Assembly: GCA_017942035.1 (NCBI GenBank)
Contig: JAGAVG010000043.1
Location: forward strand, 62,001-126,000
DNA length: 64,000 nt
Direction: 5' to 3'
From: a bacterium
GTDB taxonomy: Bacteria; Cyanobacteriota; Vampirovibrionia; Gastranaerophilales; Gastranaerophilaceae
Positions 33,855 through 58,521 of the stretch are shown piece after piece. Each line of letters starts with the position of its first letter. Positions within the stretch are counted from its first letter, which is position 1. The translations under genes and the position numbers were made by a program. Below the pieces are notes generated by a model. The model made no database searches, was not told the DNA's origin, and was given only the letters and a program-made list of their open reading frames with translations.

Positions 33855-35002
33855 ATAAGATAACGATTAAATCAAATATAAAAAATTATAATGTTGTCTT
33901 TGAAAGTGAAGATAATTTCCTGAAAGAACTTTCAAATCTTGAAAATTCAATATTTATTGTTGATGAAAATGTGTATAATTTGCACAAAGGCGGATGTTTA
34001 GATGTTCTTCCAAAAGAAAGGTTGATTATTCTTAAAATTTCAGAGGATAAAAAAACAATTCAAACCGTGTGCGAATTATATGAAATGATAATGAAATTTG
34101 CACCGCGAAAGAATTTGAATTTAATCTCTATAGGTGGCGGGATTACTCAGGATGTAACGGGTTTTGTTGCATCAACCTTGTACCGCGGTGTTAATTGGAT
34201 ATTTGTTCCTACAACCCTTTTAGCTCAAGTTGACAGTTGTATCGGAGCTAAAACATCATTGAATTTTAATCATTACAAAAATCTTGTCGGAACTTTTTAT
34301 CCCCCGTCAGAAATTCACATATATCCAGAGTTTCTTAGAACTCTTAGCAGAGGAGATTTTTATTCAGGTGTTGGTGAAATGGCAAAACTCCATATTATGA
34401 ACGGAGAAAATGATACAAAAGCTTTTATAGAAGATTTGCCATTGATAGACAAATGCGATTTTGATGTACTTTTAAAAAGAACACGAAATTGTTTAAATAT
34501 CAAAAAATCATACATAGAAAACGATGAATTTGATACTGGACGCCGAAATTTATTGAATTACGGACACTGTTTCGGGCATGCAATAGAAAGCTCCACTGAT
34601 TTTGGAATTTCACACGGTCAGGCGGTTGTACTGGGCATGATTTTAGCAAATAAATATGCAAAACAGATAGGGATTTTGTCTGCTGAAAATGAAAAATTTG
34701 TGAGAGAAAAAGTTCTTGAACCAATATTGGTTGCGCAAATCCCTGAAATTGATGTTGAAAAAACAATAAAGGCTATGGGACAAGATAAGAAAAATCTAGG
34801 AAAAGGTCTTGCGCTTGTAATGCTGAAAGATAATTATGAACTAGTAAAAATAACAGATTTGACAGAGAAAAATGCTGGTGTGATTTTGAAGTCTTATATG
34901 AGCTCAAATTGCCAAAACCCTTGTCGTACGGATGTTTTCGGGGGGGGGGGGCTCCTAGAATACATTAAGCTTTTCCTATTTAGCGGGGTCAGATATGCAT
35001 AA
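33845..35002 (+). CDS. 3-dehydroquinate-synthase-like sugar-phosphate cyclase with a poly-G tail
   Basis: 385 aa. Two-domain DHQS fold: SIGGGITQDVTGFVAST (NAD), FVPTTLLAQVDSCIGAKTS, GVGEMAKLH (metal Glu) and NYGHCFGHAIES (metal His). Its place in a sugar operon and the AKTSLNFNHYKNL variant argue against housekeeping aroB and for a dedicated cyclitol or deoxy-sugar role. The last codons after KSYMSSN run through twelve G (34940-34951). At this length the frame ends as ATGCATAA, overlapping the HAD start. One G fewer or more brings a stop within about 15 bp, before the HAD gene. Confidence 0.82.
   Translation: MCVDKITIKSNIKNYNVVFESEDNFLKELSNLENSIFIVDENVYNLHKGGCLDVLPKERLIILKISEDKKTIQTVCELYEMIMKFAPRKNLNLISIGGGITQDVTGFVASTLYRGVNWIFVPTTLLAQVDSCIGAKTSLNFNHYKNLVGTFYPPSEIHIYPEFLRTLSRGDFYSGVGEMAKLHIMNGENDTKAFIEDLPLIDKCDFDVLLKRTRNCLNIKKSYIENDEFDTGRRNLLNYGHCFGHAIESSTDFGISHGQAVVLGMILANKYAKQIGILSAENEKFVREKVLEPILVAQIPEIDVEKTIKAMGQDKKNLGKGLALVMLKDNYELVKITDLTEKNAGVILKSYMSSNCQNPCRTDVFGGGGLLEYIKLFLFSGVRYA
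34940..34951 (+). repeat. Poly-G tract (12 G), candidate phase-variable site
   Basis: Twelve consecutive G inside the 3' end of the cyclase gene in AT-rich DNA. Such tracts are prone to slipped-strand length change. Confidence 0.8.
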
Positions 35003-56037: not shown

Positions 56038-57102
56038 TTATGTATTATACATTGAAGTATCTTCATCTTGCAGGTTTTCAGGATTAGCCGTTATTAAATC
56101 TTCATTTTTAGGTTGCACCTGTTCTTGTGCGGCCTGCATATAGTTATTTACGTTTTGTAAAGGTGCAGGTTTTGCTTCCGGTGCCGGATTGGCCTTTTGA
56201 GTCATAAGTTTTTTGGCAGATTCAGCATCAATTTCCATTTTGCCGAGAACAACTGTTTTTTGCGGGGCTGCCTGTTCTTTCGGAGCTTCTGTATTTTTAG
56301 CAAGCAAATCTTTTATTGCATTGCTGTCTAATCTGTTACCATTAGCATCATTTAATACTAATTGAGGATTTCCATTGGTGTCTTGTTCGTATTTCGGATT
56401 GATTCCTTCCGGTATGCTTTGACCATCCTTAAGTCCCAGCATTGTACGGACTTGAGCGTCAACTTTTGATTTGGTAACATAAGTTGACTTTCCAAATAGT
56501 GAACCGCCTGTTTGTTTAATAAGTTCTTCACCTAATGTTCCGTCGTCATTTACAAGGTGCATTTTCTTTGTCCCGTCCTCGCCTTTAATTTCAATGATGT
56601 TCTGTTTTTCACCGTCAACACTTCTTTTTTGTGAATGTTTAATTTGATCGGTTGTCAATTTGATTGGAGTTGATTGATTTAGTTTTGTTTTTGAAGTATC
56701 TGCAGCTTTTATTCCGTTTGTCAATGTTTGATTCATTTGTTGTGAAACATCTTTTATCGTTGGACGTTTTAGTAAAGGGTCTATGATTGCCTTACTTTGA
56801 AGTATACCCTCAAATGCATAATTTGCTTCAAGGTCGCTAAGTGTGATATCTTTTCCGTCTACTACAAAGTTTTTAGCTCCAGAGCCTCCGTAATTAGAGC
56901 CGCCCTTGAAGATGGAAACATTATTATTGGGATCGCTATCGGTAAATCTCTTGTTATTAAGCTCTGAGAGGCGTCCCAGAATAGTCGTTAATTCTTTTTG
57001 ATTAATTTCTTTTCCGCCTTGTTGCCTTACGTGATTTCTAATCATTGTTTCAAGGTTGCGTCCGCCTTGAATTGTTACTTTGTTGTTGATTGGTGGTGTC
57101 AT
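56038..57102 (-). CDS. Unknown low-complexity protein behind a poly-G tract
   Basis: 354 aa, rich in Asn, Lys, Gln and Pro, with no signal peptide. N-terminus TPPINNKVTIQGGRNLE and a VSIFKGG motif near residue 62, like the FxG motifs of other unknown proteins here. The C-terminal third is Ala/Pro/Glu-rich (APKEQAAPQK ... NPAPEAKPAP). AAGGAGAGTACATT precedes the ATG. A run of 11 G lies 75-85 bp upstream, in the promoter region. Surface or regulated protein is a guess. Confidence 0.65.
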   Translation of the reverse strand: MTPPINNKVTIQGGRNLETMIRNHVRQQGGKEINQKELTTILGRLSELNNKRFTDSDPNNNVSIFKGGSNYGGSGAKNFVVDGKDITLSDLEANYAFEGILQSKAIIDPLLKRPTIKDVSQQMNQTLTNGIKAADTSKTKLNQSTPIKLTTDQIKHSQKRSVDGEKQNIIEIKGEDGTKKMHLVNDDGTLGEELIKQTGGSLFGKSTYVTKSKVDAQVRTMLGLKDGQSIPEGINPKYEQDTNGNPQLVLNDANGNRLDSNAIKDLLAKNTEAPKEQAAPQKTVVLGKMEIDAESAKKLMTQKANPAPEAKPAPLQNVNNYMQAAQEQVQPKNEDLITANPENLQDEDTSMYNT

Positions 57103-57176
57103 AATGTACTCTCCTTATCTTTTAATTTATACTTTATAAACTACTGTTTATATCTTATGTATATATAAAGTATATC

Positions 57177-57187
57177 GGGGGGGGGGG
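57177..57187. repeat. Poly-G tract (11 G), intergenic
   Basis: Eleven G in AT-rich DNA, upstream of the 56038-57102 gene (as poly-C on its strand) next to TATA-rich promoter-like sequence. Confidence 0.75.
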
Positions 57188-57280
57188 CAAATTTACTCTT
57201 TAGGCCAAAATCGTTACAAATATTTACAAACTCTGGTCGAACGCGAGCTGGAAATAAAGGCCACCAGAGCATAACGTATT

Positions 57281-57380
57281 GCTCCCTCGCCCCTTGTGGG
57301 AGAGGGTAAGGAGTAGGGTAGACTTTAGTCTACCAGAAAAATTGGATTGCCGCGCTTCGCTCGCAATGACGTAAGTATAA
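57281..57380. repeat. Composite intergenic repeats
   Basis: CCCTCGCCCC repeat (57281-57308), GGTAGACTTTAGTCTACC palindrome (57318-57335) and an ATTGGATTGCCGCGCTTCGC-type segment. A further CTCTGGT ... ACCAGAG hairpin lies at 57231-57270. The 57103-57432 interval holds no other supported gene. Confidence 0.75.
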
Positions 57381-57420
57381 AGTATAGTTATATATCATAC
57401 CTACCCAACAAGTTTTATGC

Positions 57421-57432: not shown

Positions 57433-58521
57433 ATGGAAATAGTGATGATAACCGATTTATATCCGGTTTGTGAAAATGAAAAGAACACGCCTCGAACTCT
57501 TTGGGATTTTGTTGAAAGTTGGAGAAATTCAGGGCATAGGGTTTCTGTTATAAAACCTAATTTTATTCTGAATTCTTTTGTCAGGAAGAAACCGTTTTAT
57601 AAGTCCGGAGAATATGAAGATGTTTTGAATTTGAATTTCTGGCTTCCGTTTATGGGGAATTTTTCTCGTTACAAAAAATCCGACGATGCAATTTATATCG
57701 CTCACATGCCAAGTGGAATTTTGTTTGCTGACAGGATGGGAGTTCCTTTTGTTGCAGGAATTCATCAGTCTGATATTGACGTTTTGACAAAGCCTTTGTA
57801 CAAATTTTATTTCGGGAAAAGACTTTTGAAAGCTTTGAGAAATTCGCGCGCAATCGCTTGCCGCTCATTCGTTTTGAAGAAAAAACTTTTAGGGCTTTAT
57901 CCTGAGTTTGAAAGTAAAACTTTTGTCTGCCCGAGCGGGATTGATGAAGAGAAAATTATTCAAAAAGAATTTAAACCTTTGAGTGAAAAAATAAAAGTTT
58001 TGACTGTTGCGCGTTTTAAAAAACGCAAAAATATTGATAAGGTTATTGAGGCTGTAAAAAGTCTGGAAAGTTTTGAGTTGACTGTTGTCGGGGATGGCGA
58101 GAATAAAAAATATTTGGAAAATCTTGCCTCTAATTGCAAGAAAATTACTTTTACCGGCACACTTTCTAATGATGAAGTTTTAGAGAAAATGCGAAGCTCC
58201 GATATTTTTATTCTGCCAAGTGTTAACGAAACCTTTGGAATGGTTTACTTAGAGGCTATGGCATCCGGTTGTGTTACCGTTGGGACAATAGATGACGGGG
58301 TGGATGGAATTATTAAAAACGGAGAGAATGGATTTCTTATAAAATCTGAAACTGACGAAATTAAAAATATTTTGAATTATATAAAAAATGCGGATGAAGA
58401 TAGCTTGAAAGCATTGCACGAGAAAAGTTTTAGTACAATTTGTAATTACACAAAACAGAAATGTTGTGAAGAATATTTGCAACAAATTTTAAGATTTTGT
58501 AAAGATTTGACAACATCATAA
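57433..58521 (+). CDS. GT4 family glycosyltransferase
   Basis: 362 aa GT-B enzyme. MITDLYPVCENEKNTPRTLWDFV in the acceptor domain, LTVARFKKRKNIDKVIEAV, FTGTLSNDEVLEKM and the donor-site [20 protein letters not shown] with EX7E. Stands alone, away from the main sugar cluster. Donor and acceptor unknown. Confidence 0.88.
   Translation: MEIVMITDLYPVCENEKNTPRTLWDFVESWRNSGHRVSVIKPNFILNSFVRKKPFYKSGEYEDVLNLNFWLPFMGNFSRYKKSDDAIYIAHMPSGILFADRMGVPFVAGIHQSDIDVLTKPLYKFYFGKRLLKALRNSRAIACRSFVLKKKLLGLYPEFESKTFVCPSGIDEEKIIQKEFKPLSEKIKVLTVARFKKRKNIDKVIEAVKSLESFELTVVGDGENKKYLENLASNCKKITFTGTLSNDEVLEKMRSSDIFILPSVNETFGMVYLEAMASGCVTVGTIDDGVDGIIKNGENGFLIKSETDEIKNILNYIKNADEDSLKALHEKSFSTICNYTKQKCCEEYLQQILRFCKDLTTS

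Follow-up and report, generated by a model that had tools for sequence, protein, structure and literature searches.

Random on/off switching of genes by poly-G tracts is known from Neisseria and Helicobacter. In Bordetella fim and in Neisseria porA and opc, a C or G homopolymer between the −35 and −10 elements alters promoter strength. The repeat of Neisseria meningitidis nadA is a tetranucleotide, and the promoter tract of Helicobacter pylori sabA is a T tract. In nadA, distal promoter elements are spaced differently depending on how many copies of the repeat are present (PMC2791445), and sabA has repetitive tracts both in its promoter region and at other sites in the gene (PMC2715451). Helicobacter canadensis has a phase-variable poly-G repertoire at promoters and at the 5′ and 3′ ends of coding sequences, with ranges of tract length seen in reads (PMC2823697), and the Campylobacter phasome contains many G/C homopolymers, both intragenic and intergenic (PMC6321876, PMC8355987). 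In the open-access literature, no earlier report of phase variation in Melainabacteria or Gastranaerophilales was found beyond an incidental mention.

Here we analysed a window of 64,000 nt in a 1.99-Mb Gastranaerophilales genome, in which a tract of exactly 11 G on the plus strand lies 75–85 nt upstream of the ATG at position 57102 of a minus-strand gene, adjoined by TATA-rich sequence. The initial annotation had described the tract in this way, and its coordinates and description proved correct. The gene encodes a protein here called P0001 (Table 1), and its start codon is credible because a ribosome-binding site precedes it. On the coding strand, the sequence reads C11, then GATATACTTTATATATACATAAGATATAAACAGTAGTTTATAAAGTATAAATT. 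The possibility that the tract belongs to an upstream extension of P0001 was rejected, as, for each of three tract lengths, no long frame connects the tract with the gene. We consider it about 70% probable that this tract is a transcriptional contingency locus, where transcription of P0001 would depend on tract length.

Table 1 Features at the tract and elsewhere in the window
Feature	Position	Strand	Remark
Homopolymeric tract, proposed hypermutable promoter element	57177..57187	-	G11 on plus strand, C11 on coding strand
P0001, 354-aa protein, no Pfam family	56038..57102	-	N-terminal domain of ~100 aa, low-complexity tail
Ribosome-binding site AAGGAGA of P0001	57110..57116	-	from sequence
Candidate -35 TTGCCC, overlapping the tract edge (tract in spacer)	57185..57190	-	weak
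Candidate -10 TATATA, 17 bp from TTGCCC at 11 C	57162..57167	-	weak
Alternative proximal -10 TATAAA (tract upstream of core promoter)	57133..57138	-	
Dispersed genome repeat, between tract and glycosyltransferase gene	57277..57382	.	does not contain the tract
Divergent glycosyltransferase (Glycos_transf_1)	57433..58521	+	245 bp away, on the side of the tract opposite P0001
Second window tract, G12, close to the 3′ terminus of a 3-dehydroquinate synthase-like gene	34940..34951	+	

Long G runs are far too frequent to be left to composition. The window has ~36% G+C (64% AT), yet its A and T runs never exceed 9. Overlapping G9 matches number 7 in the window, in two runs, compared with a mean of 0.04 in dinucleotide shuffles, and the single other run of at least 9 is the 12-G tract of Table 1. 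When G runs of at least 9 and their gene neighbours were counted over the whole genome, seven runs of 10–12 G were obtained, the exact runs being G7 = 4, G8 = 3, G9 = 0, G10 = 1, G11 = 3, and G12 = 3. Markov chains of order 1–3, trained on sequence of the same genome with the tracts removed, give an expectation of 0.04–0.28 runs of at least 10 G for both strands. Because 7 were observed, long G runs occur well beyond chance. Composition favours poly-A, and runs of at least 10 A are found at about a dozen sites. A length gap at 9 with a cluster at 10–12 is the look of maintained hypermutable tracts. Loss of mismatch repair was rejected as a cause of the tracts, as mutS1 is present in the genome and mismatch repair is therefore probably not missing. 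The tract upstream of P0001 is much longer than composition predicts, as is expected of a contingency locus, and it stands at a site where length change could alter expression, as is expected too.

This tract is the only promoter tract among the seven of the genome. The remaining six are all inside coding sequence, and at five of these the reading frame would switch with the gain or loss of a single base. Contig C40 has three near-identical genes (L025, L026, and L027), each with poly-G at codon 13 in the context ATGGCTGAAAGTATTGATATTATTGAATTTGCCCGTGC-G(n)-CAATCTAAG..., which encodes a prepilin-type leader, then GFTLAEMMVV; after the leader come arrays of NTTG-type repeats and a peptidase S74 C-terminus. 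Despite nearly identical flanks, n is 11, 11, and 10 in the three paralogues, and of these lengths 10 G keeps the frame open from the ATG, whereas 11 G does not. On C26, a frame of 1664 aa stops at a G12, beyond which 288 aa are open in another phase, and on C59, a G12 splits 303 aa from 806 aa. The 3-dehydroquinate synthase-like gene that holds the second window tract overlaps a HAD gene. This tract is perhaps a C-terminal type switch, in which tracts of different length would give different C-termini and might affect translational coupling.

With tracts in a promoter, at 5′ ends and at 3′ ends, all three Helicobacter canadensis classes are therefore present in this genome, and the tract lengths are similar as well (PMC2823697). 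Seven tracts, at least five of them at frame-switching positions, would make several SSR-switched genes in one genome, which is what a phasome means. The genome-wide contingency-locus strategy, which the initial annotation had suggested from the two tracts of the window, is strongly supported by the coding and frame-switching positions and by recurrence of the pattern in the family.

Runs of exactly 12 G were found in 118 of 288 family genomes, with per-genome counts of up to 38 in some genera and zero in many sampled members of others. We classified 119 tracts of the relatives, a non-random sample mostly from tract-rich genomes; 96 of them, counted as coding, are spanned by a frame of at least 150 aa. 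The longest frame requires one G more or less in 68 of the 96 coding tracts, compared with 173 of 1824 random sites (9%). A position within 60 codons of the start is found for 70% of the coding tracts and for 19% of random sites, and the G is on the coding strand in 88 of the 96. Among the frames downstream of the relatives' tracts, prepilin-like ones are the commonest (N_methyl in 24 of 67), and others have flagellin C-terminal domains, S74, glycosyltransferases, and sugar epimerases. By analogy, this gene spectrum resembles that of known phasomes. It differs from Campylobacter, an unrelated phylum, where surface glycan modification dominates and not prepilins. It also differs from Helicobacter canadensis in that the lineage is Gastranaerophilales, the main class of the relatives is prepilin-like, and the tracts are known here from assembled sequences.

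Two side observations were made among these relatives. In genus g18 (L138, L140, L149, L151, and L154), AAACCCTTG...TTTAC-G12-CAA...TAAGGC recurs around tracts that sit 140–165 nt before large frames, and it looks like a shared leader element. A run of 52 G near a contig end (L113:1404–1455) is probably a sequencing artefact.

The P0001 family offers evidence specific to the tract. P0001 itself has neither a Pfam family nor a convincing NCBIfam family, and its function could not be taken from the fold, with a poor AlphaFold mean pLDDT of 60.6 and no PDB match at E ≤ 0.001. Homologues in Gastranaerophilales have in common an N-terminal block of ~100 residues and/or a central region, and their C-termini differ. 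Promoter pentanucleotide arrays are present in 4 of 23 other homologues (loci L063:1341–1377, L228, L066, and L089), compared with 2 of 1100 random 300-nt pieces of the relatives' loci. The four arrays are CATAG ×7, CATAG ×5, GATAG ×4, and TGATA ×4, starting 104–128 nt before the ATG. The two CATAG arrays, ×7 versus ×5, belong to a sister-species pair (G281 and G137), and the sequence surrounding them is alignable. Promoter repeats at roughly the distance of the tract are thus a recurrent feature of the P0001 family, which makes them the strongest specific evidence for the tract at 57177–57187.

Repeats occur elsewhere in genes of this family as well. The G281 homologue has C13 directly after the start codon and its assembled frame is off; the near-identical sister gene of G137 has CAACCG at the same place, with no tract and an open frame. 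The G206 homologue has two in-gene G10 tracts, of which the 3′ one is also in G292. In L227, an assembly gap (N run) at ~2600–2700 falls at about the place of the G10 of the L071 orthologue. With repeats both in the promoter and elsewhere in the gene, the family is like sabA, although sabA is an adhesin regulated by ArsRS (PMC2715451). On balance, we favour the view that Gastranaerophilales, relatives of cyanobacteria that live in the gut and are non-photosynthetic, have a large prepilin-centred poly-G phasome and that the accessory P0001 family has repeatedly gained SSR switches (in the promoter as C11 or pentanucleotides, at the start codon, in the middle, and at the 3′ end). Species would then differ in the means by which they phase-vary the same gene.

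Similar C-tract promoters are found in genus g10, where other genes have C12–C14 tracts 47–60 nt before their ATGs, with TGTTAAGCAAT before the tracts and GCTACTTAATATGTATATAAGG after them, and the sequence downstream is similar to that of the window. In a search of 288 genomes, a pattern made from the g10 and window sequences hit three genomes of g10 plus the window, and its reversed form hit none. Because the pattern was built after its members had been seen, these matches are descriptive. In G048 and G100, the region is ~99% identical with tracts of 13 and 14, respectively. Clean slippage between the two was rejected, as the length difference comes from an edge substitution with no clean indel. 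Taken with the position of the tract and the promoter SSRs of the homologues, the g10 promoters suggest that a change in tract length would likely alter promoter strength, as the initial annotation had proposed.

In the contingency-locus reading, slipped-strand mispairing at replication would add or remove C in the P0001 promoter. Each such change would shift the distance and the helical phase of the promoter elements flanking the tract, and cells of one clone would then differ in the strength of P0001 expression. The tract would be one of a genome-wide set of poly-G switches, and across the family most tracts would shift the reading frame close to the start codon of a prepilin-like, surface, or glycan gene. 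That this tract is unstable, that it affects transcription, and that it does so through spacing are our inferences; the tract and its position, the genome-wide set, the recurrent SSRs of the P0001 family, and the differences in tract length or presence between near-identical genes are observed.

Two geometries are conceivable. First, the tract could lie in the spacer of TTGCCC-17-TATATA at 11 C, weak candidate hexamers that together match the consensus at 8 of 12 positions. This arrangement resembles Bordetella fim and Neisseria porA and opc, although the promoters of those genes are experimentally defined, whereas the hexamers here are weak guesses. Second, the tract could lie upstream of the proximal TATAAA and re-phase an element beyond it, in the way expected of the pentanucleotide repeats in the homologues. 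This arrangement and those repeats are like nadA (PMC2791445), but nadA is an adhesin controlled by NadR, whereas P0001 is not known to have a regulator. The homologues have a conserved promoter block, TTTGTAAC-N15-TGAAAT-N18-TTTATA, which is eye-catching as a frame around the tract, but its profile score is not significant, with 20% of shuffles scoring as high. As the match to this block is not significant, we make no firm choice between the two geometries. The element spacing changes with tract length in both.

The foremost alternative is that the genome is phase-variable but this particular tract is neutral, lying above the real promoter (TATAAA), where its length would be irrelevant. It agrees with the TATA boxes of the homologues, which lie ~35–50 nt before the ATG, nearer to the proximal TATAAA than to the tract, and with the finding of no strong sigma-70 promoter spanning the tract. 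On the other hand, long G runs are almost absent from the genome outside switch positions, and the homologues repeatedly have SSRs at the distances given above, making neutrality unlikely.

Post-transcriptional control, as exemplified by Helicobacter pylori tlpB with its tract in the 5′ leader, would require that the tract lie in a long 5′ leader of P0001 and that its length affect RNA structure or small-RNA binding. A transcription start upstream of 57190 would put C11 in the leader, and the distance to the ATG would be compatible. However, the AT-rich, TATA-like sequence between the tract and the ATG fits a downstream start, and the tract region has no Rfam match, on which ground an RNA element was rejected. 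We regard this explanation as quite improbable.

Even less credit is due to control of the divergent glycosyltransferase instead of P0001. The tract does lie in the shared intergenic region, and such genes are common among phase-variable genes and also among the tract genes of the relatives, but this one is on the far side of a repeat, the SSRs elsewhere belong to the P0001 family, and the glycosyltransferase of a congener (L121) has no tract upstream. Such control is probably not to be expected. A syntenic tract was sought in the congener and rejected, as the glycosyltransferase is present there with P0001 not adjoining. The repeat occurs at ~40 or more places in the genome, with modules CCCTCGCCCCTTGTGGGAGAGGG, GTAGGGTAGACTTTAGTCTACC, and TTGGATTGCCGCGCTTCGCTCGCAATGACG; its matches cover 57277–57382 only, and the tract was rejected as a part of it. 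The GTAGGGTAGACTTTAGTCTACC module is also found upstream of pilin-like genes on C40. Least probable of all, and already largely contradicted, is that the G run is a by-product of this repeat, which is 90 bp away, or a sequencing or assembly artefact like the implausible 52-G run of one relative (L113), because no other repeat copy reaches the tract and the seven runs of 10–12 G stand at switch positions and recur in relatives.

While the mechanism is already known, its occurrence in this lineage is apparently new. Multi-locus phase variation has been described for the most part in host-associated pathogens, and whether this pattern is biological or a result of biased sampling is a question raised in a 2025 review (PMC11868660). 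The question would become testable with a gut lineage close to cyanobacteria, mostly uncultured, in which some genera have dozens of poly-G tracts at switch positions and many members of other genera yielded none. Moreover, an apparently frameshifted or fragmented gene in one of these genomes may be a switch that happens to be off.
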